In this document: piece by piece, positions 14,663-32,825 of the stretch
Position numbering within the stretch: the first letter of the stretch is position 1
Layout: the number at the start of each line of letters is the position of its first letter
From: Gluconobacter thailandicus F149-1 = NBRC 100600
Lineage (GTDB): Bacteria > Pseudomonadota > Alphaproteobacteria > Acetobacterales > Acetobacteraceae
Assembly: GCF_000964465.1 (NCBI RefSeq)
Contig: NZ_BANH01000015.1
Span: 1-64,000 of the forward strand
Reading direction: 5' to 3'
DNA: 64,000 bases
Notes under the pieces: model-generated
The model's database searches: none
Told to the model about the DNA's origin: nothing
What the model saw: the letters and a program-made list of their open reading frames with translations, nothing else
Translations under genes and position numbers: made by a program

Positions 14663-15055
14663 TCAATGCAGATCCTCGTCTGGTCTCTTGGGCTGATCAG
14701 GTATGCCAAAAGTCGTGTTTTTGTCCGTGTCTGGAGCCATGTCTTGCCGCTGGAGCACCAACTCTGGGTGCAGGGCAGCCAGTCGCAAGGCCAGTTCTTC
14801 GTCGGTTCGACCGTTCAGGACGCCTTTCAGGAGGAAGTCAGTCGAGACGCGCAACCGGTTCGAGAGAGCGGCAATGAGGAAGACGCTGGGTGCGCGATCT
14901 CCACGCTCAATCTTGTTGAGGGTGGAGGCATCTACCCCCAGAAGCCGGGCACACTCGCTCTGGTTGGGAATGACGAGTTCCCGGGCCCAGGCGATACGTG
15001 TTCCGATGGCTCGCTGGAGGATAGTCAGGGAGTCCGAGCGCTTGTGTTTGGCCAT
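14663..15055 (-). CDS. XRE-family phage repressor
   Basis: 130 residues with an HTH_XRE domain at about residues 9-70 (TRIAWARELVIPNQSECARLLGVDASTLNKIERGDRAPS) followed by a short tail, without a LexA-type S24 peptidase domain. It is therefore not RecA-cleavable in the lambda CI manner, and derepression would need another signal. It is divergent from the early genes. Matching operator dyads lie just upstream (O3 only 17 bp from its start) and again about 190 bp beyond its 3' end, consistent with autoregulation and control of the early promoter. Confidence 0.82.
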   Translation of the reverse strand: MAKHKRSDSLTILQRAIGTRIAWARELVIPNQSECARLLGVDASTLNKIERGDRAPSVFLIAALSNRLRVSTDFLLKGVLNGRTDEELALRLAALHPELVLQRQDMAPDTDKNTTFGIPDQPKRPDEDLH

Positions 15056-15161: not shown

Positions 15162-15470
15162 ATGAGGCAAATTAAAGAAGGCCAGATCCCGCGTCGGATT
15201 TCTGCGAGTGCGATTGCTGCGATACTGGCGTCTGATGGCTGGCAGCCGATGCAGAAAACAGCGCGCAAGAAATCTGCTGGCAAGGGACGGAAGATCTCCA
15301 AAGTTTCAGGTGGTACGGAGAAGCGGCAGGTTGTCGATCGTGAGAGCGCAGAGGCGCTTCCTCCCGGTCATCCGGTCAGCTGGAAGGCTTTGTGGGGCTC
15401 GGATCTGGCGCCGGCGTTTCCTGCCTTGACCCCGATGGGTGTGTCTTCAGCCTGGGAAAATATCCACTGA
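15162..15470 (+). CDS. Early protein of unknown function, basic
   Basis: 102 residues, first gene rightward of the operators, preceded by AAAGGA. The N-terminus (RQIKEGQIPRRISASAIAAILASDGWQ) is followed by a Lys/Arg-rich segment (KTARKKSAGKGRKISK) suited to nucleic-acid contact. Family not recognised. It overlaps the next gene by one base (TGATG), so the two form an early unit. Possibly a Cro-like or accessory regulator; this is not supported by a motif. Confidence 0.55.
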   Translation: MRQIKEGQIPRRISASAIAAILASDGWQPMQKTARKKSAGKGRKISKVSGGTEKRQVVDRESAEALPPGHPVSWKALWGSDLAPAFPALTPMGVSSAWENIH

Positions 15471-15985
15471 TGCATACTTTGATTCGCGAGGTTTTGCCGC
15501 GTGAGGAGTCGGTGAATGTGCGGCCGACTTTAGAGCGCCTCCAACACCATGAGTTTCAGGACCGTAATGGTGTTGCTCGTGTCGTGAACACGGTTCAGTC
15601 CATGTATGATGCGGGCGATATTGGGGATGACGAAGTTTCTGTCGCTGATCGTTGGTATCGGGAATATCTGTTCGCAACTTTGGGAGTTGTGGAAGAGCGC
15701 CCCTCGGATGGACGTTTTCGGGAAAAAGGGGATGTTCATACCTGGATGATGGGGCGCGGGAAGTGTTCTGCTCGTATTTCCGAGATCAGGGAGATGTTGG
15801 GACTGTGCGGACATGTCCGTCTGGAGATGCTGTTAGCCCGTGAAATGTCTTTCTCGGCTATGGCGCGTCAGTTGTATCCGGGGATATCCGAAGGTCGGGG
15901 GAGAATGAAGGTATCAGCTCAGTGCGCCCTTCTTCTGGAGCAGCTTGTTCATGTATATAAAAATATAAAAAAGAATTATCGTTAA
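15470..15985 (+). CDS. Candidate Q-type late antiterminator / late regulator
   Basis: 171 residues. The C-terminal third (HVRLEMLLAREMSFSAMARQL followed by a basic GRGRMK segment and a final helix) reads as a sigma-region-4-like HTH, the fold found in phage Q antitermination proteins. The N-terminal half is rich in charged helices. Eight bases after its stop begins a strong promoter followed at once by an intrinsic terminator and then the late genes, which is the arrangement of lambda Q-pR'-tR'. The function rests mainly on that layout; a plain transcriptional activator is the alternative. Confidence 0.5.
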   Translation: MHTLIREVLPREESVNVRPTLERLQHHEFQDRNGVARVVNTVQSMYDAGDIGDDEVSVADRWYREYLFATLGVVEERPSDGRFREKGDVHTWMMGRGKCSARISEIREMLGLCGHVRLEMLLAREMSFSAMARQLYPGISEGRGRMKVSAQCALLLEQLVHVYKNIKKNYR

Positions 15986-15992
15986 AAAGTTG

Positions 15993-16021
15993 TTGAAATC
16001 TGCGGTCGATTATTTTATAAA
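15993..16021 (+). promoter_or_regulatory. Late promoter (pR'-like)
   Basis: TTGAAA (15993-15998), a 17-base spacer and TATAAA (16016-16021): near-consensus sigma-70 promoter. Start of transcription would be near 16028, only about 22 bases before a terminator stem. It would make a short aborted leader RNA unless polymerase is modified. Confidence 0.7.
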
Positions 16022-16049
16022 AAACGTACATTGAATTATTTTTATTTGT

Positions 16050-16085
16050 AAGGCCAATCCGATTTTTGGGTTGGCCTTTTTCTTT
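16050..16085 (+). terminator. Leader terminator in front of late operon (tR'-like)
   Basis: AAGGCCAA (16050-16057) pairs with TTGGCCTT (16071-16078), extended by CC/GG, then TTTTTCTTT. It lies between the late promoter and the first late gene, so late expression requires read-through. Confidence 0.8.
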
Positions 16086-16101: not shown

Positions 16102-16533
16102 ATGGAACGATTTAATATCGTTCCCGGAGCGGTTGTTCTTTCCGGGCGACAAACAATGATTGTTTTGTGGGATGAAGGGCCTGACGTAATTGCCTGTCCA
16201 TTGGTGTCTGCGGATGAGGCGCTTCATCGTGCAGACCATAGTCTCGAATGGCATGAACTTGTGGATGCTGGTTTGAGGCGGCTGGACGTTCGTTGCCGGG
16301 CTATTCCCTGTCAGCGTCAGGTCCTTTCTCTCAGGGCTATTGGGTGTGTTGATGAGGCTACGGTGAAACGTCTCAGGATGATGGCTCAGAGAGAGTGGAA
16401 ACATCGTTTTCAGGAGAGTGTGCCTTCATCCAAGGTCCGAGCGAAACCCCGTCATGTGGGGAAAACAACGGCGGTCTGGTTTGATGGATGTTCGATGAGC
16501 AGTCGGCGTGAGGAACGCCTGCACATGGGCTGA
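16102..16533 (+). CDS. Possible PemK/MazF-fold protein, first late gene
   Basis: 143 residues. The pattern FNIVPGAVVLS...MIVLWDEGPDVIACPLVS...VRCRAIPCQRQVLSLRAIGCVDEATVKRLRMMAQ resembles the SH3-like barrel order of PemK/MazF ribonucleases, with a basic C-terminal tail. No antitoxin gene is next to it. ATG at 16102 is chosen; the frame stays open further upstream, but that part lies inside the terminator. It may be a toxin-fold protein reused in the particle, or a host-takeover factor. Family assignment is uncertain. Confidence 0.4.
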   Translation: MERFNIVPGAVVLSGRQTMIVLWDEGPDVIACPLVSADEALHRADHSLEWHELVDAGLRRLDVRCRAIPCQRQVLSLRAIGCVDEATVKRLRMMAQREWKHRFQESVPSSKVRAKPRHVGKTTAVWFDGCSMSSRREERLHMG

Positions 16534-16568: not shown

Positions 16569-17018
16569 ATGAACGAAACACAGACTGACGGACTGCGCGG
16601 ACGGAATGGGCGTGCACGTCGGCGTAAGGAGCGGTTTCTGGAGCATCTGGCGAAAAGTGGAAATGTTTCTGACTCTGGTCGTGTTGCCGGGGTTCAGAGA
16701 AGCACGCTGTATCATTGGAAAGAAACAGATGCGGCTTTTGCGTCTCAGTGGGAGGATGCGCTGGAGGATGCAGCCGATGTGTTGGAAGCTGAAGCGAGGC
16801 GTCGTGCTTTAGAGGGGTATGACGAACCGATTACTTATGCTGGCAAGGTTGTTTGCGATCCGGAGACGGGTCATCCGCTTGTCAGGAAAAAATACAGTGA
16901 TGGGTTGATGGCGTTTCTGTTGAAGGCACATCGTCCATCGCGTTTCAGGGCGGCGCATGATGAAGTTCCTGCCGCGCCTATTTCCATCAGTATCAGTTAT
17001 GACGACAGCGTCCTTTAG
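16569..17018 (+). CDS. Terminase small subunit
   Basis: 149 residues with an N-terminal HTH (RRKERFLEHLAKSGNVSDSGRVAGVQRSTLYHWKETDAAFASQWEDAL), typical of phage terminase small subunits that recognise the packaging site, followed by an oligomerisation helix (ADVLEAEARRRALEGYDEP). It overlaps the large subunit by 20 bases if that starts at 16999. A 6-bp dyad (ACGGTC/GACCGT, 16533-16552) lies just upstream and is of unknown meaning. Confidence 0.82.
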   Translation: MNETQTDGLRGRNGRARRRKERFLEHLAKSGNVSDSGRVAGVQRSTLYHWKETDAAFASQWEDALEDAADVLEAEARRRALEGYDEPITYAGKVVCDPETGHPLVRKKYSDGLMAFLLKAHRPSRFRAAHDEVPAAPISISISYDDSVL

Positions 17019-18315
17019 ATTGAATGATGCGCAGCGTGATGCTGTTCGACTTTTGGGAGGGCCAGCTCGTCATATTTTGCTGAGAGGGGGTTCGAGGTCC
17101 GGTAAGACATTTGTTCTGATCCGGGCGGTTGTCATTCGGGCTTTGAAAGCTTCCGGAAGTCGGCATGGGATTTTCCGTCATCGACTGACGGCTCTTAGAG
17201 CATCTGTTCTGCGGGACACGTTCCCAAAGGTCATGCGGCTCTGTTTTCCACAAGTTAGCTGGAAGCTGGCGCGACAGGAAAACATCGTCACCTTTCCGAA
17301 TGGATCGACAATTTTTTTTGGAGGTCTGGACGATGAGCAGAGGACTGAAAAAATCCTCGGTCTTGAATTTTCGACAGTTTATCTGAACGAAGCGAGCCAG
17401 ATCAGTTATGGCGCGCGGAATATGTTGCTGACGCGTCTGGCCCAGAAGTCCGGTCTTGTGAACCGAGAATATATTGATGCCAATCCTCCAAGTGTTGGGC
17501 ACTGGCTTTATGCGTTGTTCGAAATGGGAATTGAGCCGAAATCGGGTGAACCGATAGGGGATCGTTCTTTATACGATACGATGATTCTTAACCCTCATTC
17601 CAATAAGGATAATCTGGGAGAAGAATATATTGCGGCACTGGAAGCGTTGCCGGAACGTGAGAGGCGGCGTTTTCTTCACGGGGAATATCAGGCGGCGGTT
17701 GAAGGTGCGTTGTGGCGTATTGACTCGTTTCGACGGGAAGCCGCGATTACAGCAAGTAGCCGGATGGATATTGCGTGTCGGATGCGGCGGATCCTGGTGT
17801 CTGTCGATCCTTCGGGTGCGTCTGGGCCTGAAGATTATCGCTCTGATGAAATCGGAATTGTAGTTTGCGGGGTAGATGCTGACGGTGTCGGGCATGTGCT
17901 GGAAGACCTGTCGGCGCGGGATAGTCCGGCGGGGTGGGCAGCTCGTGCCTTGCATGCACTTGATGACTGGCGGGCCGAACGCATTGTAGCCGAGCGCAAC
18001 TTTGGTGGTGCTCTGGTGGAAAATACAATTCGAAGTGTGCGGGCTCATGCGCCGGTACGATTAGTGACGGCCGCGCGCGGGAAAGCGGCACGTGCCGAGC
18101 CGGTTGCGGCACTCTATGAAATTGGCAAGGTGGTTCATCATGGGCGTTTTGAAGCGCTTGAGGATCAGCTCTGTCATTTCTCGGTCAGTGGATATCGTGG
18201 TTCCAGGTCTCCGGATCGTGCGGACGCGATGGTCTGGGGGCTGAGTGAACTGATGCTGTCTGGCAGCAGCGGTGTGACGGGCTGGAGCCCGTCAGGATTT
18301 TCGTTGGCGCGCTGA
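16999..18315 (+). CDS. Terminase large subunit (ATPase/nuclease)
   Basis: 438 residues from the ATG at 16999; in-frame ATGs at 16957 and 16960 are alternatives that overlap more of the small subunit. DNA-packaging motor. Walker A is LLRGGSRSGKT, Walker B with catalytic Glu is STVYLNEASQ. The RNase-H-like nuclease acidic residues appear in LVSVDPSG, VAERNFGG and DRADAMVWGL. All key residues are present, so packaging activity is plausible. Terminase_3/6-type family. Confidence 0.9.
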   Translation: MTTASFRLNDAQRDAVRLLGGPARHILLRGGSRSGKTFVLIRAVVIRALKASGSRHGIFRHRLTALRASVLRDTFPKVMRLCFPQVSWKLARQENIVTFPNGSTIFFGGLDDEQRTEKILGLEFSTVYLNEASQISYGARNMLLTRLAQKSGLVNREYIDANPPSVGHWLYALFEMGIEPKSGEPIGDRSLYDTMILNPHSNKDNLGEEYIAALEALPERERRRFLHGEYQAAVEGALWRIDSFRREAAITASSRMDIACRMRRILVSVDPSGASGPEDYRSDEIGIVVCGVDADGVGHVLEDLSARDSPAGWAARALHALDDWRAERIVAERNFGGALVENTIRSVRAHAPVRLVTAARGKAARAEPVAALYEIGKVVHHGRFEALEDQLCHFSVSGYRGSRSPDRADAMVWGLSELMLSGSSGVTGWSPSGFSLAR

Positions 18316-18357
18316 AAAGCCTTCGGGCTTCAGGTGGGCTTTAGCACTGGAGAACTC

Positions 18358-19776
18358 ATGGACTGGTTGTCCCTGCAGCGGCGGTATGCCGTGCCGACGG
18401 GTGCGTCTGCGCGGACTGCGCGCCTGTTGGCGTTGAGACGTGTTCTGGATGGTACGCAGTATGATGCTTTGCCGCACCCGTTCTCGATGGAGCGATCGGG
18501 AGCGGGAGAGTACATCCCGCTTTCTAACAGACGTCCGTCCGTAAGAAGTAATCTCTGTCGAACTGTTGTTGATGAATCTGTTTCATTGCTGTTCGGAGAT
18601 ACGCATTGGCCTAGCCTGATTGCTGATGACACTCGGGTGTCAGATGCGATGGGGGTCTTTGCCTCTCAGACGCGGCTGGCATCTTTGATGTTAGAAGCTG
18701 CGACTGTTGGTTCGATTGGTTCGGTGGCGGTTCTTTTTGAGGTTTCAGCCGGTGTGCCGAAGCTCTCAGTTTTGGATACGGCGTATCTGACGCCGTTCTG
18801 GGACGATGTCAGTGGAGAATTGCTGCGGGTGGAAGAGCGTTTCCTGGTTAGGGGGCGTGATCTGGCCGTGCAGGGGTATTCGATTGGCGAAGACCTTCTG
18901 GGTGCTCAGTTCTGGTGGCAGCGGATCTGGACGCCAATGGATTGCGTTGTGTCCGTTCCCTGGCTTGTGGGGATGGAGGGAGGCGTGCGGGATGAGAGTC
19001 GGTCCGTTCGTCATGGGCTGGGGTTTGTTCCGATTGTCTGGATCCGGAATCTTGGCGGTCGTCAGGGGCAGGATCCGGAAGGCGAATGCACGTTTGAGCG
19101 AGCGATTGATACGGTTATCGAGGCAGATTATCTGCTGTCTCAGGCGGGCCGCGGACTAAAATATGGTTCCGATCCGACGCTGGTTCTGAAAACGGGTGGA
19201 TTTTCGGAAGGTGTGGCGCATCAGGGAGGAGCGTCTTCCGCTCTGACGTTGCCACCTGAAGGTGATGCCAAGCTGCTTGAGATCAATGGCAATGCGGCGG
19301 GGGCGGTGCTCGAGCATTACCGAGAGCTTCGGCAAATTGCGCTTGAGCAGCTTCATGGCAACCGGGCGCATGGCGACCGGATTTCGGGCGTGCAGTCTGG
19401 CAAGGCTATGGAGATGATGTGCCAGCCGTTGATCTGGCTGGTGGATCGGCTGCGCCATTCTTATGGCGAGAGTGGATTGCTGGCCATTTATCGGATGGCG
19501 TGTCGTTTCTCCTGTGTTCTGGAAAATGGTCTGCGTCTGGGCGGTGTTCTGGTGAAGGACTTGCCTTACTGCCGCATGACGTTGCGGTGGCCTGCCTGGT
19601 TCCCGGCGACGGACCCTGAGCTTCTGTCTCTGGCGCAGGGGCTTGTGACGGCAGTTTCGAATGGAATTCTGAGCCGGGAGACGGCCGTCAGGATGTATGC
19701 GACGGCGTCTGGGAATTCTGATCCCGGGACGGAATGGCGGCTTCTTGAAAACTGGGTTGCGTTGGATGGCGTATAA
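18358..19776 (+). CDS. Portal protein (SPP1 gp6-like)
   Basis: 472 residues. Dodecameric DNA gate at the capsid vertex. Recognised by the sequence NLCRTVVDESVSLLFGD, a clip/stem region with YLLSQAGRGLKYGSDPTLVLKTGG, and the C-terminal helical part with RISGVQSGKAMEMMCQPLIWLVDRLR, as in SPP1 gp6-like portals. ATG at 18358 follows GGAG. A small AAGCC-TTCG-GGCTT hairpin without a T-run lies between terL and this gene. Confidence 0.82.
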   Translation: MDWLSLQRRYAVPTGASARTARLLALRRVLDGTQYDALPHPFSMERSGAGEYIPLSNRRPSVRSNLCRTVVDESVSLLFGDTHWPSLIADDTRVSDAMGVFASQTRLASLMLEAATVGSIGSVAVLFEVSAGVPKLSVLDTAYLTPFWDDVSGELLRVEERFLVRGRDLAVQGYSIGEDLLGAQFWWQRIWTPMDCVVSVPWLVGMEGGVRDESRSVRHGLGFVPIVWIRNLGGRQGQDPEGECTFERAIDTVIEADYLLSQAGRGLKYGSDPTLVLKTGGFSEGVAHQGGASSALTLPPEGDAKLLEINGNAAGAVLEHYRELRQIALEQLHGNRAHGDRISGVQSGKAMEMMCQPLIWLVDRLRHSYGESGLLAIYRMACRFSCVLENGLRLGGVLVKDLPYCRMTLRWPAWFPATDPELLSLAQGLVTAVSNGILSRETAVRMYATASGNSDPGTEWRLLENWVALDGV

Positions 19777-19793
19777 GATTGAGCGGAGAGAAA

Positions 19794-20288
19794 ATGTCCG
19801 GGTCTGAAAATACTCTCGAAGATGTGGAAGGACTTCGTCAGGCGCTTGCTGAGGCGATGGACGAAGTGAAATCCGTTCGTCAGGCCATGGCGGATGCTGA
19901 GGCCAGACAGGAGGAGCTTCAGCGTACGCATGAAGAGGTCATTTCCCGTGTGAAGCGGGAAAGTGATCATGACGTCATGATCGCTGCATTGCGGTCTGAA
20001 GCCATTCGGATGGGCGCGCATAATCCTGATGATGTTGTGCGTCTGGTTAATATGGAAGGTGTTAGTCGCAATGACGACGGCACGGTTGTGGGGGTGACGG
20101 AAGTTCTGGAGCGAACCCGGAACGACCGTGCCTATCTGTTTGGTGATCTGGTGCGCCCTGGGTATTCCAGCGGAACGACGGTTGGTCACCCTGCGCCTAA
20201 GCCAGGTGAAGCTGAAGCATTTAATGCCCGGTCTGCGACAGATTCCGACTACGAAGCTCGCAAATGGCAGTTTCTAGCCGGAGCCTGA
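19794..20288 (+). CDS. Capsid scaffolding protein
   Basis: 164 residues, strongly helical and acidic in the first half (LRQALAEAMDEVKSVRQAMADAEARQEELQRTHEEVISRVK), typical of a coiled-coil scaffold. It then has ALRSEAIRMGAHNPDDVVRLVNMEGV, the GP20-type scaffold motif. It lies between portal and major capsid, the usual place. ATG at 19794 is preceded by GGAGAG. No capsid protease was seen, so the scaffold may exit without cleavage. Confidence 0.75.
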   Translation: MSGSENTLEDVEGLRQALAEAMDEVKSVRQAMADAEARQEELQRTHEEVISRVKRESDHDVMIAALRSEAIRMGAHNPDDVVRLVNMEGVSRNDDGTVVGVTEVLERTRNDRAYLFGDLVRPGYSSGTTVGHPAPKPGEAEAFNARSATDSDYEARKWQFLAGA

Positions 20289-20368
20289 TGGCTCTGGTGT
20301 GAAGTGATTGATTGTGGCCGGTGAAATTCTGCCGGAAATTTTCCATAAATATTTACGGAACGAAATTA

Positions 20369-21748
20369 ATGAGCATTGATAATTTCCCAGTTCAGCTTCA
20401 GGCCGCCATTCAGCAGGGCTTTCTGGCCCGTGAGTTTGAAAACGGTTTGAAATCCCGTCTTGGTTTCCGTCAGGTTGCAGATCGGGAGGTTTTTCCGAAC
20501 GCGATTGGTGAGACGCTGACCAAAACGCGCAAGAGCCTGAAGGCGCCCGTTACAACACCGCTCAACCCAACCGGAAATACCAATTTTGATAACGGGATGA
20601 GTCCTGCCGGCTGGTCTGTTGAGCAATACACGCTCTCGATCAATCAGTATGGTGACACGATTGATCTGAACATGGTCACGAGTGGCGTCGGAATTGCGTC
20701 CCAGTTCCTGGCCAATGCCAATACGAATGGTGTTCAGGCCATGCAGTCTCTGGATCGTCTGGCGCGTAATACGCTTTTTGGTGGTGCTCAGAACGGTGTT
20801 GGCGGTTATCTGGGTGGTAATACGCGTGTCAATATTGCGCTGGATGCAGAGGGGGATACCATTCAGGTTGATGATATCCGTGGGTTCCAGTCGGTTATTG
20901 TCAATGGTCAGGTGACGCTGATCGGATCCAGCAATGGCATGACTGTCACGGTTGGCTCTGATGTTTATACGCTTGTCCGGGTTGTGGCGGATGCGACCAA
21001 TATTTCTACGGCTCCGGGTGGCATTTCCGGGCAGATGACGTTCTCCGGCAGCGTTTCTGTTTCCGATGGTGCTCTGGGTCAGCCTGTGGTTGCGGCAACT
21101 GCGCCGAAAGTGATTCGCCCTAACGGTCGCCTGACGACGGCGGCGCTTCAGACGGCAAGCGCGAGCGGTCTGGCAGATACGCTTGGTATTCAACAGGTTC
21201 TTGCCGGTGTTGCGACACTGCGCCGGAATAACGTGCCGATGATCAATGGTGCGTATCACTGTTATCTGGATGATATTCAGCTTCTGTCGCTATTCCGCGA
21301 TGATGACTTCAAGCATCTTTACCGTGGTGCGTATGGCTCGGAAGAGTATCGCTCTGGACAGGTGATTGAACTTCTGGGCGTTCGTTTCATTCCGACGACT
21401 GAAGCGCCTCAGCAGCTTTCGCTGGGGGCAGGGCCGATCCATCGTGCGCTGCTTCTGGGTCAAGGGGCGCTGATTGAGGGCGATTGTGCGCTGACAGGTC
21501 ATTCCGATATTCCAGATGCTGATCGGGCCCTGATTGAGATGGTTGATGGTGTGGCGATGGTGACCCGTGAGCCGCTGGATCGTCTGCGGCAGATCATTGC
21601 GCAGTCCTGGTACTGGATTGGTGGTTTTGCGCTTCCGACGGATGTGACGGCGGATACGAATGTCATTCCGACAGCGACCAACAGCTATCTGAAGCGTGGT
21701 GTCGTGATTGAGAGTCTTGGCACGGATGCGCTGGGTATGACGTTCTGA
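20369..21748 (+). CDS. Major capsid protein
   Basis: 459 residues. Position after scaffold, the N-terminal arm (QLQAAIQQGFLAREFENGLKSRLGFRQVADREVFPN) and the P-domain-like region (VLAGVATLRRNNVPMINGAYHCYLDDIQLLSLFRDDDFKHLYRG) fit an HK97-fold capsid. A beta-rich insertion of about 90 residues (DIRGFQSVIVNGQVTLIGSSNG...) may be a surface domain. The start ATG has only a weak ribosome-binding site, preceded by an AT-rich 80-base gap. Confidence 0.78.
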   Translation: MSIDNFPVQLQAAIQQGFLAREFENGLKSRLGFRQVADREVFPNAIGETLTKTRKSLKAPVTTPLNPTGNTNFDNGMSPAGWSVEQYTLSINQYGDTIDLNMVTSGVGIASQFLANANTNGVQAMQSLDRLARNTLFGGAQNGVGGYLGGNTRVNIALDAEGDTIQVDDIRGFQSVIVNGQVTLIGSSNGMTVTVGSDVYTLVRVVADATNISTAPGGISGQMTFSGSVSVSDGALGQPVVAATAPKVIRPNGRLTTAALQTASASGLADTLGIQQVLAGVATLRRNNVPMINGAYHCYLDDIQLLSLFRDDDFKHLYRGAYGSEEYRSGQVIELLGVRFIPTTEAPQQLSLGAGPIHRALLLGQGALIEGDCALTGHSDIPDADRALIEMVDGVAMVTREPLDRLRQIIAQSWYWIGGFALPTDVTADTNVIPTATNSYLKRGVVIESLGTDALGMTF

Positions 21749-21793
21749 AAATGAACTGGGGCCTCATGGGGCCTTTCAGGTCAGGGGAAAATT

Positions 21794-22195
21794 ATGTCTG
21801 GAACGGCAAGTCTGTCTTCTGCTCCTTTGACGGAAGGAGAGAAAATGGATGTCCGGAGGTTTTGCGGGTATCCGGCGGTCGGATCTCGGGAGACAGGACA
21901 GGAATCCTGGCGCTTCTTTCAGGTTGAGGGAGCGCTTGAATGGCGTATGGGGAACCTGTCGGGCGCAGAGCTTCAGCAGATCCGGCTTTATCTGTTGCAG
22001 CTTTATCCTCTTGAAAAGGCTCTTCTTGGAGCTTCGGACAATCTGGATACGGCGCAGGCTGCGAGCTGGTATCACAATGGTCATGAATTGCGGGACCGGA
22101 TGACGCTTTTTACGCTCTGGAGGCGTCGTCTCTGTGCGTTTCTTGGCGTAACGGGTGGTCTGGAGCTGCAGGATGGTCGTGCCGTAGTGATTTGA
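21794..22195 (+). CDS. Head-tail connector candidate
   Basis: 133 residues, mostly helical (SGAELQQIRLYLLQLYPLEKALLGASDNLDTAQAASWYHNGHELRDRMTLFTLWRRRLCAFLGV). It lies directly after the capsid gene, where adaptor/connector proteins sit. Not matched to a named family. No membrane or signal segment. Confidence 0.6.
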   Translation: MSGTASLSSAPLTEGEKMDVRRFCGYPAVGSRETGQESWRFFQVEGALEWRMGNLSGAELQQIRLYLLQLYPLEKALLGASDNLDTAQAASWYHNGHELRDRMTLFTLWRRRLCAFLGVTGGLELQDGRAVVI

Positions 22196-22205
22196 AGGAG
22201 GCATG

Positions 22206-22805
22206 ATGCATCTGGAACTGATTGCATCAAGGATCTGTAAAGGACATGCAAAAGCAGCGGGTATTTTGGGACAGACAGGTGTGCAGTATCGGCCTGATAA
22301 CCCGTTAGAGCCGATGCAGGATGTTTATGCCCATCCAACGCTGGCTTTTGACGCGGATGTTTCTTTTTCATTTTCCCGCGTTCCTGGCTGGGGCAAGGTT
22401 ATGGAATATGTTCTGACGGATCGACGGGATGATACGTTGGTCGGGGACATTCTGACATGCGCTGGGAAAACGTTTTTTGTAGCGGTGGTTGAAGATTTGA
22501 GGCCGCCCTTGTGTGTTGCATGCAGTCGGGTTGTACAGGTCAGTGGCGTGATCGGAACAGAGGGAAATGTTGTTGAGGATTGTCCTGCTGCAATTGTTTT
22601 GAGGTCAAAAGGAGAGGGTTCGGGGAGTGGCGTTCCGGGCTCGGTGAAACCTGGTCAATTCGTCATGTATCTGCCACTTCTTTCTGGTGTCATGCTTCAG
22701 CCGTACATGACGGTCACGACAGATCTTGATGTAACCTACACGGTGAATACTGCTGAAATATCTGACTGGGGTTTACGTTGCACGATGTCTTTGCAGCAGA
22801 TCTGA
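22206..22805 (+). CDS. Neck / head completion protein candidate
   Basis: 199 residues. The body is beta-rich (MEYVLTDRRDDTLVGDILTCAGKTFFVAVVEDLRPPLCVACSRVVQVSG), as in stopper or tail-completion proteins. ATG at 22206 is preferred over 22203 because AAGGAGG then stands at a workable distance. Family not recognised; role inferred from position between connector and sheath genes. Confidence 0.5.
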   Translation: MHLELIASRICKGHAKAAGILGQTGVQYRPDNPLEPMQDVYAHPTLAFDADVSFSFSRVPGWGKVMEYVLTDRRDDTLVGDILTCAGKTFFVAVVEDLRPPLCVACSRVVQVSGVIGTEGNVVEDCPAAIVLRSKGEGSGSGVPGSVKPGQFVMYLPLLSGVMLQPYMTVTTDLDVTYTVNTAEISDWGLRCTMSLQQI

Positions 22806-22817
22806 GAGGAAATTGAT

Positions 22818-23792
22818 ATGGCGGATGCCTCTCAGATGAGCCAGGCGCTGGCGTATGTCTGTGCGGGAATATTGTATCCGGACGGTCTGGAAAAACCCTC
22901 CATTACCGGACGGCAGGCCGTTATTCGGCGAGGCTGGCTTTTGCCGAGTGATATTTTTACAGCTCAGAATATTCGAAATCATACTGATTTCGTAACCGTT
23001 ACGATGTCTGCCCGGAAGGGCGCGACCGTACCGGAACCTCTGGGACGTCCGTGGCAGGTTCAGGCGCGTATTCTGCCGACTGTTTCCGTTCTTCAGAAAG
23101 GGCGATCTGTCCAGATTGTTTTTCCGGAAAGTCTGGCTCCTTCAGGGGTTGTTGGCCTTTGGTATGAAGGCGCTCTTCAGACGACAGCTGCTTATGCGGT
23201 GACAGCACAGTATACAGCAGAAAGTGTGGCTGCTGCTTTGGCGGATCAGTTGCCGAATGGGACTGTAGAGGGGGCGCTCGTTAGCGTGCCGGGTGTTTCG
23301 GTTCTGGGAAACGTTGTCGGATATGGGGAGTCGGTTCGGGTTAGCCGCCGGCAGAGTCAATTGTATCGTGTTTCAGTCTGGACCGCGGATGCCAGTGTTC
23401 GGGATATAATTGGGCTAGTTCTTGATACGGCTCTTGCGGAGAAAAGCTGGATCTCGACATTGGATGGCCGACAGGCGCAGTTGAAGTTTGTGGGTGTTGA
23501 AGATGTGGATGCCATGCAGAATCAGGCAGTTTATCGCCGGGATTATCTCTATGAGCTGATTTTCGACACGCTCCAGACCCAGTGGGCGGCTGACATGATG
23601 TTTGGGGTAGGGACTATTGACGCCGGGGGGCAGGACGTTGGCTTTGGTGCCATCGCACCTGCATCGGAGGAAGACGTTGTGACGCGGGCGCTGGAGGCGA
23701 TGGCTGCTGCGGCGGTTTCTGTGTCTGCCCGTTCTGAATATCCAGGAATGGCGTTGAATCAGTTTGGTACGGTTGTCAGTTCGACAGACTGA
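22818..23792 (+). CDS. Structural protein of unknown function, neck region
   Basis: 324 residues preceded by GAGAGGA. An N-terminal helix is followed by a beta-rich central part with repeated Val/Gly-rich strands. Near the C-terminus, YRRDYLYELIFDTLQTQWAADMMFGVGTIDAG resembles tail-terminator-like proteins, which often end with such a segment. It is the last gene before an internal terminator and so closes the head module. Tail completion is the likeliest role but is unproven. Confidence 0.5.
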   Translation: MADASQMSQALAYVCAGILYPDGLEKPSITGRQAVIRRGWLLPSDIFTAQNIRNHTDFVTVTMSARKGATVPEPLGRPWQVQARILPTVSVLQKGRSVQIVFPESLAPSGVVGLWYEGALQTTAAYAVTAQYTAESVAAALADQLPNGTVEGALVSVPGVSVLGNVVGYGESVRVSRRQSQLYRVSVWTADASVRDIIGLVLDTALAEKSWISTLDGRQAQLKFVGVEDVDAMQNQAVYRRDYLYELIFDTLQTQWAADMMFGVGTIDAGGQDVGFGAIAPASEEDVVTRALEAMAAAAVSVSARSEYPGMALNQFGTVVSSTD

Positions 23793-23813
23793 AAAGCAAA
23801 AGAATTTAATTGG

Positions 23814-23854
23814 AAAAGCCTTCTGTTCCGGACCTGGAGCAGAAGGCTTTTTTT
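23814..23854 (+). terminator. Internal terminator between head and tail modules
   Basis: AAAAGCCTTCTG (23814-23825) and CAGAAGGCTTTT (23840-23851) form a perfect 12-bp stem with a 14-base loop, ending in a T-run. No promoter is evident before the sheath gene, so tail genes appear to need read-through. Confidence 0.85.
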
Positions 23855-23876
23855 ATTGTGGGAGAAATACCGGCGG

Positions 23877-25361
23877 ATGTCTCTGGTTTATCAGGCGGGT
23901 ACGCTGAATACGACGGCACTGACGGTGCCTAATCTGTATGTGCAGATTGCACAGCCACAGACACTTGGACTTACAGGCGCGTCTTCCTCCAAGCTTGGTA
24001 TTGTGGGAACTGCGGGGTGGGGCCCTGTGGGCTCACCTGTGCCTGTGGGGGGAATGAGTGATTACCTTGCGGCATTTGGCGCAAAACAGAATGCTGTGAC
24101 TGATGCAGGTCTGGCTGTGAATATTGCTGCCATGCAGGGGGCGTCTTCTTTCGTGGTGGTCCGTGTTACGGATGGGACGGATGTAGCGGCCTCTGGCAGT
24201 TTTGGTGATGTATCGCTTCAGGCTGTTCATACGGGCACGGCGGGCAATGGTATTATTGCGACTGTCAGTGCAACAGGGGCGGGATATGCGCTGGCGGTTT
24301 CCCATCCTGTGTTGGGGTTTGCCAGTTATGCCGGTAGTAACTGGTCAACACTTGCGGCGGCTGTTGAGCAGGACCTGTCAGCTCTGATTGTTGTGCATTT
24401 GCCAGAAACGGTTCCTGATATTGCGGTTGGTAGTGTGACTTTGTCGGGTGGTCTGGATGGTGGAGCACCTTCTGTTTCGTCTTTTCTGGGGAAAGATGAC
24501 ATCGTTCGAACGGGTATGTATGCCCTGAGAGGACAGGGATGTGCGATAGCGCTTCTACACGGTGTTACCGACAGCGCGTCTTATTCTTCCCAAGCCGCTT
24601 TTGGCCTTGGAGAAGGGACGTATATGATTGCTACGGGGCCTTCTTACGATAACGTGACGAATGCTGTGTCAGTCAAAGCTGCCAGTGGGCTGGATTCATC
24701 TGCCGTTAAGCTGATGTTTGGTGACTGGCTGTGGTGGAATGATGACGTTAATGGAATGATGCTTGTCAGCCCGCAGGCTTTTTCGGCAGGAATTTTGGCT
24801 GCGCTTTCGCCTGAGCAGTCAAGTCTCAATAAGGCACTGGCGGGGATTGTTGGTAGCCAGAAATCAGGCCTGAGCGGCAGTAGCGCAACATATTCTACGG
24901 CAGAGCTTTCCACGCTGTTTACTGCGGGGATTGATGTTATTTGCAACCCTGCGCCGGGCGGTTCCTACTGGGCTGTGCGTTGTGGGCATAATGCATCGAG
25001 CAAGGCGACTGTAAATGGCGATAACTACACGAGACTGACCAATTATATTGCATCCTCTCTGGCGGGTGGAATGGGGGCTTATGTTGGCCAGGTTGTGAAT
25101 GACACGCTGTTTTCGGATATTCGCTCGACGCTTCTCGGTTTTCTGTCGTCTTTGCTGTCTCAGGGAATTCTGGGTGTTCAGAACGGTGAACTGCCTTACA
25201 GTGTAGTTTGTGACAGTTCCAATAATCCTCAGACACGGACAGCACTTGGCTACGTGCAGGCGGACGTTGCTGTGCGTTATCAGGGGATCAACGAGAAATT
25301 TGTGGTGAACCTGCAGGGGGGCACATCCGTGACGGTGACGTCTGCAGGCGGGAGCATCTGA
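23877..25361 (+). CDS. Contractile tail sheath protein (Mu L-like)
   Basis: 494 residues. Recognised by the N-terminal LTVPNLYVQIAQPQ...KLGIVGTAGWGPVGSPVPV, the central QGCAIALLHGVTD region and the C-terminal sheath domain (DNYTRLTNYIASSLAGGMGAYVGQVVNDTLFSDIRSTLLGFLSSLLSQGIL...VAVRYQGINEKFVVNLQGG). It defines the particle as contractile. ATG at 23877 is used; the frame extends 7 codons upstream into the terminator tail. Confidence 0.88.
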   Translation: MSLVYQAGTLNTTALTVPNLYVQIAQPQTLGLTGASSSKLGIVGTAGWGPVGSPVPVGGMSDYLAAFGAKQNAVTDAGLAVNIAAMQGASSFVVVRVTDGTDVAASGSFGDVSLQAVHTGTAGNGIIATVSATGAGYALAVSHPVLGFASYAGSNWSTLAAAVEQDLSALIVVHLPETVPDIAVGSVTLSGGLDGGAPSVSSFLGKDDIVRTGMYALRGQGCAIALLHGVTDSASYSSQAAFGLGEGTYMIATGPSYDNVTNAVSVKAASGLDSSAVKLMFGDWLWWNDDVNGMMLVSPQAFSAGILAALSPEQSSLNKALAGIVGSQKSGLSGSSATYSTAELSTLFTAGIDVICNPAPGGSYWAVRCGHNASSKATVNGDNYTRLTNYIASSLAGGMGAYVGQVVNDTLFSDIRSTLLGFLSSLLSQGILGVQNGELPYSVVCDSSNNPQTRTALGYVQADVAVRYQGINEKFVVNLQGGTSVTVTSAGGSI

Positions 25362-25363
25362 GC

Positions 25364-25789
25364 ATGGCAAATCCATACAGCATTGGCCGGGATTGCCGGA
25401 TTACGGTTCTGTGGAACGGGCAGCGCGTTGATCTTCGGGATGTGACGTCTTTCGGGGCGTCGCAGGAGACACATGCTCTGCGTGCCAGTCCGCTTAACGG
25501 AATGCCCGTGGAATTTAATGTTCCAAATGGCTGGAGAGGCTCCTTTCAGATTGCCCGGGCAAGTGCTGCGCTCGATAATCTGGTGGCTGCGATTGAGGCT
25601 GCTTACTGGAATGCGGGTACGGTCGGCAGTGGTACGATTTATCAGTACGTGACGGAACCGGACGGAACGACCAGCACCTGGGAATACACGAATATTTCCA
25701 TCAAGCTGAAAAATGATGCGTGGCAATCTGACCAGATGGTTCACCAGACGGTTCAGTTCTTTGCTTCTACAAGGACGAAAATTTCGTGA
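25364..25789 (+). CDS. Tail tube protein (Mu M-like)
   Basis: 141 residues, beta-rich, directly after the sheath. Typical tube elements are SIGRDCRITVLWNGQRVDLRDVTSFGASQET, VPNGWRGSFQIARASAALDNLVAAIEAAYWN and the C-terminal strands. It forms the inner tube driven through the envelope. Its stop overlaps the GTG start of the chaperone gene (GTGA). Confidence 0.82.
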   Translation: MANPYSIGRDCRITVLWNGQRVDLRDVTSFGASQETHALRASPLNGMPVEFNVPNGWRGSFQIARASAALDNLVAAIEAAYWNAGTVGSGTIYQYVTEPDGTTSTWEYTNISIKLKNDAWQSDQMVHQTVQFFASTRTKIS

Positions 25790-26270
25790 GTGCACTTCCC
25801 GAAACCGTATCTCTCTCGGATGGGCGTTGTCTGGCTCTGAAAGAAATTGATCCGGCAGATATGCTGGATCTGATTGAAGCCGCAGGTTCGGCGGTAAATG
25901 GTCCTGCCGCGGCCACGTGGCTTGGATATGCAGAAATGATTTGCTCTGTCACGGCGATTGACGGGGTTCCTGTGCAAATGCCAGGGACCAAGGGAGAAAT
26001 TCGTGAACTGGCGCGTCGGTTGGGCAAAATTGGAGTAGCGGCTCTTCACCCTCTTTTCCAGCAGGAACAGGACGAAGAGGCTGTGGTGGCTACAGCAAAA
26101 AACTGAGTGGGCACTCTGTGTTTCAGGAGATGCTTTATCTTCTGGATCATGGAGTGCCTTGGAATATCCTGAAATCGTGGTCGCGGGCTCGGCGTATGGC
26201 AGCTTGCATTATTACCGCGGAGCGCGATGGGCATGTGTTTGACTGGAGCCGAAGGCAGTATCGGGAATAG
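25786..26270 (+). CDS. Tail assembly chaperone, with -1 frameshifted long form
   Basis: The short form ends at 26106 (106 residues: IDPADMLDLIEAAGSAVNGPAAATWLGYAEMICSVTAIDG...). At 26097-26103 the codons read GCA AAA AAC TGA, so the heptamer A AAA AAC is in the correct register immediately before the stop. A -1 slip gives a 161-residue form with 55 extra residues (beginning LSGHSVFQEM, containing DHGVPWNILKSWSRARRMAACII and ending at the TAG at 26268-26270). Phage tail chaperones commonly use such a slip (lambda G/GT). Start is GTG at 25786. Confidence 0.78.
26097..26103 (+). promoter_or_regulatory. Programmed -1 ribosomal frameshift site A AAA AAC
   Basis: A canonical X XXY YYZ slippery heptamer in the zero frame, followed directly by TGA. 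The downstream -1 frame stays open for 55 codons and encodes a protein-like sequence. Confidence 0.75.
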
Positions 26271-26272
26271 AG

Positions 26273-27169
26273 ATGCGCACAGACAAATTACGGATTGGGG
26301 CATTTCAGTTTGATCTACCAGTGACCCGGCATGTTTTCAGGGCGCGCTCAGCAGGTTCAGTAGCCTCGTTTGTGCCGCTACGTAGGCGATTTGGGACATC
26401 CTTCCGTATCAATGAAAAATCTCCTCCGAGCATCTCTTCAGAAATGGCACGTGTAAGAAAAATGTTGACGGCCGGGGATCGGGATAAGAGTTTTCTAAAA
26501 AATAATAATATTTATGCTTTTCTTGGAGGGGGGAAGAAGGACGCGCGGAGTAGGGCGACCTACAGGAGAGCAGGCGTTAAGGCGGAGCGGTCATTATTAG
26601 AAAAGCTTTTCAAAAATCCTGTATCGCCAGAGGCACGGCGGCCAGTAAAGCCGACTGCAGGTTCGGTTTCTTCGGTTGTTAATGGTAGAAATACTCCGAT
26701 TTTTCGGAAGACATTTAAGCATCTTTCTGACGTATGGCGACCTAGGAAACATGAAGCAAAGGGGGCTGCGCGTGCTTCTGCGATAGGAGTTGTCAGAAAT
26801 ACAATTTCCCATCAGCATGGGAAAATAATTTCTGGGTTCAAGGAAAACAATCTTATTCGTTTGAAGACGCCGGGAAGTAACTCTGTTCGGAATGTTAACG
26901 GCAAGCTGCCGAACAGTGTGGTGCCTTCTGGTGGGAAAAGAAAAAAGATCTCAGAAAATCTGATGCAGGATCAGAATGGTCAGCATCAAATGGTAAAAGA
27001 AGATTCTTTTTTTGACGCTGTGGGGCGTGCCTCCTCGAAATCACGTGGTGGAATATTCGAGCGACACGATCCAGAGCGAAGTTTGAGACTTGCGACGCGT
27101 CAGGGACACGGAGGCGTAGATGAGCTCAGATTCCCGCAATATCCCGGTCAAAGTATCGGAATGAGTTGA
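26273..27169 (+). CDS. Short basic protein in the tape-measure position
   Basis: 298 residues, very rich in Arg, Lys, Ser and Asn, with no hydrophobic helix and no long coiled coil. Gene order (chaperone, this gene, Mu N-like hub) is the place of the tape measure, but most tape measures are longer and contain hydrophobic segments. At about 0.15 nm per residue it would set a tail near 45 nm. Codons include many AGA/AGG and AT-rich choices unlike its neighbours. It could be a degenerate or replaced tape measure, or an inserted cargo gene. Confidence 0.5.
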   Translation: MRTDKLRIGAFQFDLPVTRHVFRARSAGSVASFVPLRRRFGTSFRINEKSPPSISSEMARVRKMLTAGDRDKSFLKNNNIYAFLGGGKKDARSRATYRRAGVKAERSLLEKLFKNPVSPEARRPVKPTAGSVSSVVNGRNTPIFRKTFKHLSDVWRPRKHEAKGAARASAIGVVRNTISHQHGKIISGFKENNLIRLKTPGSNSVRNVNGKLPNSVVPSGGKRKKISENLMQDQNGQHQMVKEDSFFDAVGRASSKSRGGIFERHDPERSLRLATRQGHGGVDELRFPQYPGQSIGMS

Positions 27170-27186
27170 AATAAAGGAGAGCATGG

Positions 27187-28104
27187 ATGGGCTTGACGCT
27201 CTCTGCACTTGAAAATGCCATTGGCTCTGCCGGGCGGTTAGGAGCAACGGCACCTGTCATGCTTGGGGAACTGGTGCTCACAGGTATTGAAGTGCCGGAC
27301 CGTCTGCAGGTCGGTGGTCGACAGATGATGGTAGTTCATCGGCTGCCTGGTGGGGGGCGTGTTGTTGATACGCTGGGCAATGATCCGGGGCGTTTGGAAC
27401 TCACAGGTAAATTTCTTGGACCGAATGCACAGGCGCGGGCTCAGGCAATTGAGAAAATGCGTGTTCGTGGCACGCCTGTTGCGTTTTCTGCGGCTGGCAT
27501 TGCACTGCAGGTCTGGATTGTACGCTTCGTTTATTCTTATGAAGCGAAAGGTGCGCTTTGCTCATATGAGCTGACTCTTGAGAGACCAGCGGAAAGTGTT
27601 AGTTCTGCAAATGCTGGAAATACGCTTGCGAATGTTTTGGGAAGCGATGTTGGCAGTGGTTTGGCTCAATTGAGTGGCGTTATTTCTGACGTATCTGACG
27701 GTTTGTTCGTCGAAAGTGGACAGCTTGCCTCGATTGTCGGTCAGGTCATGCCTTTGGGCACGCTGGTGGGTGCCGGTGGCTCTCTTGCCAAAGTCAGTGA
27801 TGCACTTACCACAACAAGTGCTCTAAGTCAGGGCGTTACGAATCTGGCGGGAGCGTCAACAGTTCTGGATAATTTGTCGCGGCAACTCAGTATTTCTGGG
27901 CAAGGGTTGATGTCGGCACTCCAAGTCTCTGGTCAAAATATTGAAAATATCCAGGTCGAGAGTGCCTCTTCTCTCTCCGCTGTTGTTGGAAATGCCGCTG
28001 TACAGAGTGTGGGGGCAGACGTCGGCGGGCTGATCAATCGGTCGAATGCGTCTGTCGGACAGGCCCTGGGGCTTACTGCACAAACGCCGGCAGTTCATTC
28101 GTGA
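27187..28104 (+). CDS. Baseplate protein, Mu N-like / DNA circularisation N-terminal domain
   Basis: 305 residues. The N-terminal domain (APVMLGELVLTGIEVPDRLQVGGRQMMVVHRLPGGGRVVDTLGNDPGRLELTGKFLG) matches the 'DNA circularisation protein N-terminus' family, now understood as a distal tail/baseplate ring protein. The remaining half is low-complexity Ser/Ala/Gly/Val helices. It is followed immediately by the tail protein X gene. Confidence 0.8.
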   Translation: MGLTLSALENAIGSAGRLGATAPVMLGELVLTGIEVPDRLQVGGRQMMVVHRLPGGGRVVDTLGNDPGRLELTGKFLGPNAQARAQAIEKMRVRGTPVAFSAAGIALQVWIVRFVYSYEAKGALCSYELTLERPAESVSSANAGNTLANVLGSDVGSGLAQLSGVISDVSDGLFVESGQLASIVGQVMPLGTLVGAGGSLAKVSDALTTTSALSQGVTNLAGASTVLDNLSRQLSISGQGLMSALQVSGQNIENIQVESASSLSAVVGNAAVQSVGADVGGLINRSNASVGQALGLTAQTPAVHS

Positions 28105-28110
28105 GGATTC

Positions 28111-28320
28111 ATGAAAGATATTATCGTAACTTCGGCGGATATTTCCCTGTTTGATGTTGCTGCGCGAGAACTGGGTGACGCCTGCCAATGGTGGCGGATC
28201 GCGGATTTCAATGGACTGAGTGATCCTGATCTGGGGTGGGTTGAAACAGTTCTCACTCTGAAAATTCCAGGAATTGTATCGGAGAGTTCGTCAGGTCTTC
28301 CTGATGACGTGGGGCAATGA
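28111..28320 (+). CDS. Tail protein X, LysM-like
   Basis: 69 residues. The body SLFDVAARELGDACQWWRIADFNGLSDPDLGWVETVLTLKIPGI is LysM-like, typical of P2 gpX-type proteins that join tube and baseplate. It overlaps the hub gene by 4 bases (ATGA). Confidence 0.78.
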   Translation: MKDIIVTSADISLFDVAARELGDACQWWRIADFNGLSDPDLGWVETVLTLKIPGIVSESSSGLPDDVGQ

Positions 28321-29378
28321 CAGATCGTCAGCTAGAGGTTCGTATCCTGTGGGACGGAATAGAAAATTCTGTATTGTATTTAAAGAAATTTGAAATTGAT
28401 TCTCACCGATATGAAGCGTGTGACACTGCTATTCTGACTTTTGTTCGCGGTGAAATTGCCGAAAGTGGCTCTGCCTTCTGGTTTGAAAGTGGCAATACGG
28501 CAAGTCCATGGGTGTCTGTGGAAATTCGGGATCTGAAAGCATCCAATACGAAGTGGACCCCGATTTTTCAGGGACGCGTAGATCATGTGCGCATTCTTTC
28601 GCAATCCTCCATTGTTGAGATGGAATGCAGAGATGCTCTGGCGCGATTGGTTGATCTGCGTGTGCAGGATGCATGGTTGAATCATACTGGATCTGATCTT
28701 CTGTCCGTATTGGCTGAGGCTGCCGGCCTAGATACCCGAGTGTCATTTCCTGCAGATATGCCTGATCGTATGTTGGGTCAGTTCTGGCAGATCGAGCATA
28801 AGCGTGGCTCTTTTCTTTCTCAGCACCGCTTCCAGACGGCGGCCGATCTGGCGTTTTCTGTTGCACGGGAAGCGCTTTGTGATTTGTACGTGGATGGGAC
28901 GACACTTGTGTGTCAGCCGATGCAGAATTCGGGCTACAAACAAAACGTCATCGACGCATGTGGAATTGTTTTCGAAACAGATATTGCTCGAGATTTGCAA
29001 TTGTCCTCCGGGATCATAGTGCATCTTGCCTCCTGGGATTCAAGGCAGCGTAACAGCACTCATTTATATTACGATGGAAAAACATTTTCTGAGAATACAC
29101 CTGTAACAACGAAAACGCTTCATAGCTTTAGGGTTCCGGGCCGTAGGGTGGAAGATCTGCGGCGTTTGGCCCGTGGAAAATACGAACGAATAGCTGCTCA
29201 CGCCGTGTCTGCACGTGTTTCGATGCCTGGCCTGATCGGGCTTGAACCGCGTCAATTCATGCGGATTGCATCAGGACAGGCGGAAATTCTTGGAGTTGAT
29301 CAGGTCGTGTCACGATTTTCGCTGGAAGAGGGTTTTGTGCAGCATGTCGTGTTACGCAGACGGGGGAGTGAGGCATGA
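28317..29378 (+). CDS. Baseplate hub protein (P2 gpD / Mu gpP-like)
   Basis: 353 residues. N-terminal RQLEVRILWDGIENSVLYLKKFEIDSHRYEACDTAILTF and FQGRVDHVRILSQSSIVEMECRDALARLVD are typical of phage late-control-D/hub proteins that form the trimeric hub above the spike. It is placed between X and spike genes with 4-base overlaps on both sides, so expression is coupled. Confidence 0.8.
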   Translation: MTDRQLEVRILWDGIENSVLYLKKFEIDSHRYEACDTAILTFVRGEIAESGSAFWFESGNTASPWVSVEIRDLKASNTKWTPIFQGRVDHVRILSQSSIVEMECRDALARLVDLRVQDAWLNHTGSDLLSVLAEAAGLDTRVSFPADMPDRMLGQFWQIEHKRGSFLSQHRFQTAADLAFSVAREALCDLYVDGTTLVCQPMQNSGYKQNVIDACGIVFETDIARDLQLSSGIIVHLASWDSRQRNSTHLYYDGKTFSENTPVTTKTLHSFRVPGRRVEDLRRLARGKYERIAAHAVSARVSMPGLIGLEPRQFMRIASGQAEILGVDQVVSRFSLEEGFVQHVVLRRRGSEA

Positions 29379-30001
29379 CTCACGGGCAAATGGCTACTGC
29401 GGCACTGGTTAATAGAAGCGCACATGCTGTTTTTGGGGTGGTGTCTGCTGTTGACCCTGTCAACCACGCGATCAAGGTTAAAATTCAACCTGACGATATT
29501 GAAACTGGCTGGATTGCGGATGTCGGAGGGGTGCAAGCTGGAGATCTCAGGATCGCCTGTCCCTCTGAACCTGGCACGCATGTTGTTTTACTTCCGATTG
29601 AAGGCGATGCAGAGCATCTGGTTGCTATTGGATCGGTCTTCGACACTGTTGTGGCAGCGCCTGTGTCGCCTTTGGACGGAAGTATTATCCAACCGGGAGA
29701 AATGCTGATCCGTGCCGGGTGTGGCAAACCGCCTGCTGGCAACGCTTTATCGTCTTCCATGGAGGAAAATGCACAGGCAGGTTGGTGCCAGATCGGGCGG
29801 CAAGCTGTGACCCTTGGAGCTGGAAATTCAAATCTCGTTATCTCTCAGGATCAGATTATTTTGACGGTTGGGGGCGTGAAAGCCGTATTGTCTGCAGATG
29901 GCCTGAAGGTCTCTTCTGGTGACGTCCAAACAGCTGAGCATTCACTGAATAATCATATTCATTTTGTGGGAACGCAGTCCACGGGAGGGCCGAGAGGATG
30001 A
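29375..30001 (+). CDS. Baseplate spike / puncturing tip (gpV / Mu gp45-like)
   Basis: 208 residues. An OB-fold (HAVFGVVSAVDPVNHAIKVKIQPDDIETGWIADV...) is followed by a beta-helical spike. The tip carries NNHIHFVGTQSTGGPRG, the His-x-His motif that binds iron at the apex in P2/phi92-type spikes. It overlaps the next gene by 4 bases. Confidence 0.83.
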   Translation: MTHGQMATAALVNRSAHAVFGVVSAVDPVNHAIKVKIQPDDIETGWIADVGGVQAGDLRIACPSEPGTHVVLLPIEGDAEHLVAIGSVFDTVVAAPVSPLDGSIIQPGEMLIRAGCGKPPAGNALSSSMEENAQAGWCQIGRQAVTLGAGNSNLVISQDQIILTVGGVKAVLSADGLKVSSGDVQTAEHSLNNHIHFVGTQSTGGPRG

Positions 30002-30357: not shown

Positions 30358-30399
30358 AAAAGATGTGCCTGTTTCAGTCAGGTGCCTCTGGAGGATGTA

Positions 30400-31539: not shown

Positions 31540-31584
31540 CAGACGGGCCTCCGGCATGAATATTTGCGGAGGATAGGGAAGACT

Positions 31585-32823: not shown

Positions 32824-32825
32824 TT

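Follow-up and report, generated by a model that had tools for sequence, protein, structure and literature searches.

Q proteins require both a -10-like box and a binding element that lies between the -35 and -10 elements (PMC6606751). For AlpA of Pseudomonas aeruginosa, a -10-like box is described at -1 to +5, where a change of A(+1) or T(+5) impaired antitermination (PMC9371919). GafZ of Caulobacter crescentus, the antiterminator of the gene transfer agent (GTA) known as CcGTA, is described as having a sigma-like helix-turn-helix (HTH) and a palindrome, the ZBE, between -35 and -10; its authors report that the AlphaFold model resembles known antiterminators neither in sequence nor in structure (PMC11150451). 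The annotation of GafA is DUF6456 (PMC9638019, PMC9765227). We analysed a 64,000-nucleotide stretch of Gluconobacter DNA (the window) for which a first-pass annotation had proposed a lambda-like late switch with a Q-like antiterminator. The analysis supports this reading of the locus, from which we infer antitermination. The best reading of the 171-residue protein concerned, ORF171, is a putative Q-like antiterminator outside the known Q sequence families, and we put the probability that it acts as a promoter-loaded processive antiterminator of the late operon at roughly 0.78.

The phage-derived element

The phage-derived cluster occupies about 14.4-34.8 kb of the window, between dnaB and a gluconate dehydrogenase-like operon, and this ~20-kb element is apparently old, domesticated and derived from a contractile phage. 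Its gene order (Table 1) runs from a divergent HTH_3 repressor-like gene through a 102-aa protein, ORF171, the promoter/terminator leader and P0003 to the terminase subunits (TerS, TerL) and the portal, followed in Pfam and PHROG scans by scaffold, sheath, base-plate genes and fibre; the PHROG assignments of TerS, TerL and portal bear out the earlier proposal that late genes come after the terminator. The structural module points to a contractile particle, with the matches for the sheath (PF22671, E 8.4e-5) and base-plate V (E 0.0018) both below the Pfam cut-offs. Pfam and PHROG searches with the 102-aa protein gave no match, and neither library recognised integrase, replication or lysis genes among the genes scanned against it, several of which stay without an assignment. 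Rfam (at gathering scores) and tRNA scans of the window returned nothing, the plasmid comparison gave no match, and the phage comparison gave one weak match, to Acetobacter phage phiAP1. The G+C content is 30% in the leader (15986-16100) and 54% in the element.

Table 1. Features of the element and their positions in the window
Feature	Position	Strand	Basis or remark
HTH_3 repressor-like gene, divergent	14663..15055	-	PF01381 E 2.9e-10
102-aa protein upstream of ORF171, same direction	15162..15470	+	median dN/dS 0.134
ORF171, candidate Q/GafZ-like antiterminator, 171 aa, C-terminal sigma-region-4-like HTH	15470..15985	+	phrog_16492 E 1.4e-43
-35 element TTGAAA	15993..15998	+	TTG with 17-base spacing in 25/25 loci
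17-base spacer	15999..16015	+	holds candidate antiterminator-binding element TGCGGTCG
TGCGGTCG, candidate antiterminator-binding element	16001-16008, about -27 to -20	+	CGC/GCG block conservation
-10 element TATAAA	16016..16021	+	sequence and 25-locus alignment
-10-like box TACATT, candidate sigma-dependent pause element	16027..16032, about -1 to +5	+	
tR'-like intrinsic terminator (predicted), 13-bp stem, then T-run	16050..16083	+	-19.0 kcal/mol; compensatory changes
P0003, 143 aa, first gene past the terminator	16102..16533	+	phrog_27245 E 4.5e-8
Terminase small subunit (TerS)	16569..17018	+	phrog_4044 E 1.3e-40
Terminase large subunit (TerL)	16957..18315	+	phrog_979 E 2.3e-79
Portal protein	18334..19776	+	phrog_145 E 9.1e-16
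Remaining structural module: scaffold, sheath, base plate (gp25-like, base-plate V-like, J), fibre	19779..34768	+	

Among six element genes compared, conservation is highest in the repressor-like gene, whose mean identity of 94% over 20 Gluconobacter loci exceeds that of TerL; it is 76-88% identical in the other genera where it was found; none was found in L123, and the Ameyamaea element is without it. Palindromes of the form TGGCATNNTGCCA flank the gene at 14460-14472, 15072-15084 (one mismatch) and 15117-15129, and they are possible repressor operators. The genome listing shows four exact copies of TGGCATNNTGCCA, two of them at this locus and the others on contig C190 (L232:3705-3886), where the cluster lies between genes that read as peptide-transporter-like and porin-like and has no clear link to the element.

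Promoter, start-site box and leader hairpin across loci

The first-pass annotation placed the 171-residue protein 8 bases before TTGAAA-N17-TATAAA; protein and promoter are both there, and the gap from the end of ORF171 to TTGAAA is 7 bases. This promoter matches 10 of the 12 consensus bases and was missed by the standard promoter scan because the scan demands T at the sixth -10 position. It is the only one of nine promoter-like sites in the window (both strands, TTG start, at least 9/12) with an xAxxxT box 5 bases past the -10 element. The predicted +1 is A16028, and the stem (16050-16078, 13 pairs, with a T-run to 16083) starts 22 bases further on, as had been proposed; the predicted short RNA from +1 to the T-run would measure ~55 nt. 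Between 8000 and 20000 there are 14 terminator-like sites, of which this one has the longest stem. Since these 14 are no more than the shuffle mean of 12.4 would lead one to expect, a single window proves little.

The same arrangement recurs across loci. Of 147 regions reduced to 86 distinct ones, with loci whose alignment ends before residue 155 left out, a stricter scan found promoter plus hairpin in 29 (0.1 expected). A relaxed scan for promoter plus hairpin and T-run, with loose criteria written after the alignments had been inspected and expectations taken from 20 shuffles per region, found the combination in 32/40 of the distinct regions whose proteins are at least 60% identical (0.55 expected), 1/2 at 50-60% (expected 0), 4/33 at 35-50% (expected 0.25) and 5/11 below 35% (expected 0.1). 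The lambda-like geometry proposed at first pass is real and conserved, beyond what chance would give. For L031 the relaxed scan picked a wrong downstream hairpin, and the stricter scan has the right one. The relaxed-scan misses comprise L004, L005 and L066, where the terminator is present and the -10 element reads CATAAG; L122, where the promoter is present and the terminator absent; and L027, L028, L034 and L153, which are paralogues without element neighbours.

These last four are close ORF171 paralogues (64-73%), without element neighbours nearby and without a leader terminator. A distant paralogue (25%) lies elsewhere in the same genome as the window (L062, G000:C149), and a promoter-like site and a hairpin with T-run also follow the far paralogues L058 and L065 of other genomes. 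In clade B, a paralogue stands upstream of a TerL-like gene in L132, L134, L164, L167 and L168, the last three of which are viral contigs of 42-53 kb; clade B loci have a short GC hairpin only, without a proper T-run.

A closer alignment comprised 25 loci with protein identities of 66-100%, of which 24 belong to the window's GTDB genus (its own locus included) and one is a viral contig (L001-L011, L013-L025 and L070; L012, near L009, was omitted). TTG-N20-[TC]A[TC]A[AT] occurs in 25/25 with constant 17-base spacing, and the invariant columns include TTG, three spacer bases, two -10 bases and A.A.TGA at the start site. RNAalifold on this alignment gave 11 pairs, 8 of them with two-sided compensation in at least one sequence. 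The position of the hairpin is constant and its sequence varies: 34 hairpins, including one wrong pick, have 33 different stems between them; the native pairing of 256/256 holds by construction and includes the wrong hairpin for L031. A strong leader hairpin was found in 0/9 loci of the Asaia/Swaminathania group, which have weaker candidates only (-7 to -14 kcal/mol), in the leader or further downstream.

The box and spacer motifs were defined only once the sequences had been inspected, and were counted in 34 element, 9 Asaia-group and 18 clade B loci chosen by hand; these counts are not independent because the sequences are related. The xAxxxT box at about -1 to +5 is present in 32/34 element, 9/9 Asaia-group and 15/18 clade B loci, against 3.4, 0.8 and 0.8 expected by chance from the composition of the regions themselves. 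A CGC/GCG block in spacer positions 3-12, a putative binding site at the position of a Q-binding element, is found in 30/34 element loci (2.3 expected), 15/18 clade B loci (4.4 expected) and 0/9 Asaia-group loci (0.9 expected). Clade B rows L045, L163 and L164 seem out of register and were scored as misses. Q-type loading needs two features that the first-pass annotation did not name, and the sequence offers a candidate for each, in the box at the start site and the conserved block in the spacer. The layout and its conservation, the covarying stem and the place of the box can all be read directly from the sequences. The first ~11 transcribed bases (ACTGAAGAATT type; 16028-16040 and equivalents) are common to many Gluconobacter element loci and to clade B loci, whose protein is only about 45% identical.

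ORF171 and the proposed switch

ORF171 has no Pfam match at E<=1 and is therefore outside the Q families in Pfam; its PHROG match, phrog_16492, is a family of unknown function, and it thus belongs to no known Q sequence family by these searches. The earlier view of a protein unmatched to Q families stands to this extent, and relatives do exist, in DUF6456, by remote profile and by fold. PDB sequence searches returned nothing relevant and an NCBIfam search nothing convincing. Among the 32 rows of a hand-chosen alignment (A1), two members match Pfam DUF6456 (best E 0.0046) and one matches a PHROG sigma factor family (E 0.026). A larger alignment (A3) held ORF171 and 55 of 62 distinct proteins. 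In hhalign comparisons with DUF6456 proteins, the far paralogues gave 57-91%, the whole family 24-74%, all but four far paralogues 7-49% and the element orthologues on their own 1.3-2.3%. As a control, one DUF6456 alignment was column-shuffled 40 times and compared with the all-but-far set; no shuffle exceeded 0.5%, where the real value was 7.3%. Another comparison came to 16%. PF20057 has no match in the window's own genome. A profile of the ORF171 family matched 73 of the 150 genomes sampled from the order, with all matches listed in the window's own bacterial family, and 2 of 190 sampled from the class, the window's genome being one of the two. All 25 same-genus genomes listed, plus the window's own, contain an ORF171 match. 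The closest copy among the named loci is that of G. frateurii (93% identity).

The AlphaFold2 model of ORF171 has a mean pLDDT of 79, high at about 41-71 and 89-170. A predicted-fold comparison with Q21 had been suggested at first pass; Q21 does top the Foldseek list over 350,542 PDB chains, at non-significant values (E 0.45, prob 0.82, TM 0.42, rmsd 9.2). Sigma-28 chains stand at ranks 4, 6, 7 and 10 among unrelated helical proteins, and no PDB match reached E<=0.001. A viral structure library gave an unnamed protein at rank 1 (28% identity, E 5.9e-7) and DUF6456 proteins at rank 2 (prob 1.00, E 3.4e-3) and rank 14 (E 0.26), the latter from Roseobacter phage RDJL Phi 1; sigma-like and DUF1492 proteins are also matched, with weak E values. 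Profiles and predicted fold together suggest that the ORF171 family is likely related to DUF6456, remotely, and we do not file ORF171 as a member.

In the mechanism that we propose, sigma-70 polymerase would start at the pR'-like promoter just past the ORF171 gene and would pause while sigma region 2 grips the -10-like box at -1 to +5. Without ORF171, polymerase would stop at the hairpin and leave the ~55 nt RNA. Once the repressor is lifted, ORF171 would be made, and its sigma-region-4-like HTH would bind the block between -35 and -10, load onto the paused polymerase and take it past the terminator and on along the long late operon, from terminase to tail fibre. Promoter activity, pausing, binding, read-through and repressor control are predicted steps of this scheme. 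Two main points count against it: the Asaia group has neither the spacer block nor a strong leader terminator, and direct homology is weak. After loss of its leader terminator, the Asaia group could rely on terminators further downstream, as CcGTA does, or the switch itself could have been lost.

The Asaia group, which retains the promoter without a strong terminator, would also suit an ORF171 that is a late activator or sigma-like factor switching the promoter on, with the hairpin as an accessory terminator or attenuator. Xpf of PBSX and ArpU are examples of such factors. The sigma-like fold matches in the PDB, the weak sigma-like and DUF1492 matches in the viral library and the single family member with a PHROG sigma factor match agree with this explanation. 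However, no activator should be needed because the promoter is near consensus, and a covarying terminator 22 bases past the start and a box at -1 to +5 would be without a role in simple activation, so that we consider it unlikely.

The number of terminator-like sites in these 12 kb, close to that obtained by shuffling, would be expected if the hairpin merely ended the ORF171 operon and the promoter were a weak independent late promoter, with no switch at all; that the promoter of most element loci stands after the gene and before the terminator, its spacing constant and the box at one offset, makes this very improbable. The least probable of the explanations considered is that the ~55 nt RNA is itself regulatory and ORF171 unrelated to it, for although the ACTGAAGAATT-type 5' stretch is shared by many Gluconobacter and clade B loci, the rest of the RNA diverges in sequence with the hairpin retained, and the window has no Rfam match at gathering scores. 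The promoter-loaded antiterminator remains our preferred reading, and with it phrog_16492, a family of unknown function, gains a testable mechanism.

Inheritance of the element and comparison with known systems

Judged by their neighbours, 32 of 46 named loci carry the element. dnaB (92-100% identity) lies within 3 kb upstream in 19 of these 32. Nine stretches extend to the fibre gene from the far side, and in 7 of them the cytochrome c/GMC (gluconate dehydrogenase-like) operon stands beside it. Stretches with this flank are taken to include G. frateurii, G. wancherniae, Tanticharoenia and Swaminathania, and it is absent at the fibre gene in L173 and L186 (taken as Acidomonas). Over 20 Gluconobacter loci, the protein distances of six element genes track those of DnaB (r 0.89-0.94), and the median dN/dS of element genes is 0.065-0.18, compared with 0.02 for DnaB. 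The median is 0.075 for ORF171 (152 of 190 pairs with usable dS) and, for the structural genes tested, 0.079 for TerL and 0.075 for TerS; dS is high in many cases, pairs that gave no usable value were excluded (38/190 for ORF171) and P0002 is represented by 19 loci. The conserved flanks, the DnaB-tracking distances and the low dN/dS indicate that the element is vertically inherited and under purifying selection.

The element is therefore of interest as a candidate gene transfer agent. Mitomycin C-induced contractile-tailed particles have been reported by microscopy from strains of G. frateurii, G. cerinus, Acidomonas methanolica and Ameyamaea chiangmaiensis (PMC8566455). The element is present in other or unspecified strains of these four particle-producing species; the available part of that report draws no link between particles and element. 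In literature searches on gene transfer agents in Gluconobacter, acetic acid bacteria and Acetobacteraceae, such an element was unreported in the titles and abstracts listed, though prophage papers may mention it, and no paper was found on antiterminators in Acetobacter late genes. We hold it tentatively, at somewhat less than even odds, that acetic acid bacteria carry an ancient domesticated contractile phage that is a new type of GTA, gated by a lambda-like switch and an adjoining GafZ-type antiterminator. Such an agent, contractile and present in bacteria of industrial use, would, if real, reveal how the control of GTAs developed from the Q-like control of phages. Because related proteins are placed in the same way in apparent full-size phages and in an inherited remnant, the family offers a route to how GTA regulators arose from phage late-gene control.

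Like RcGTA, BaGTA and BhGTA, the element is a vertically inherited, selected, phage-derived structural cluster, and the tails described for BaGTA and BhGTA are non-contractile, unlike what the contractile-tail genes here would predict (PMC9662315). RcGTA is also alphaproteobacterial and has a DUF6456 regulator, GafA, to which ORF171 is perhaps kin. From its published description, we infer that GafZ is the nearest studied analogue of ORF171. Both have a sigma-like HTH. The element used by GafZ, a palindrome with GCGC ends, lies between the -35 and -10 of the promoter that it controls, and the position of the putative spacer element of ORF171 agrees with that of the ZBE (PMC11150451); phage-derived structural genes, the target of GafZ, would be that of ORF171 too. 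The ORF171 family resembles DUF6456 by fold and remote profile, and GafZ presumably carries DUF6456, Caulobacter vibrioides being the one of 14 control genomes that matches PF20057. Among the differences, ORF171 has no Pfam match, and its gene adjoins its own promoter with the terminator 22 bases past the start, whereas the CcGTA terminator is described after the first gene. That the GafZ authors report no similarity to known antiterminators is hard to square with a common fold for Q21, ORF171 and GafZ.

With the Q proteins of lambda and 21, the locus shares the order of gene, promoter, -10-like box, terminator and late operon (PMC6606751). The late promoter beside the gene, the early terminator and the late genes of the lambdoid Q layout are all found, with the terminator missing in the Asaia group. 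The Q protein of phage 21 is described as having a sigma-R4-like fold, and Q21 is the top PDB fold match of ORF171; on the other side, that match is non-significant, ORF171 is without a Pfam match, and the TGAGCA subsites of phage 21 are absent, by eye, from the window's spacer. AlpA, likened here by description, resembles the locus in its spacer element at about -25 to -20, its box at -1 to +5 and its downstream intrinsic terminator, and differs in governing lysis genes (PMC9371919); it is not among the best 50 PDB fold matches of ORF171. The spacer block of most element loci sits where the QBE, ABE and ZBE are described. The locus suggests a loading logic common to Q21, AlpA and perhaps GafZ, built on a spacer element, a -10-like box at the start site and a terminator.
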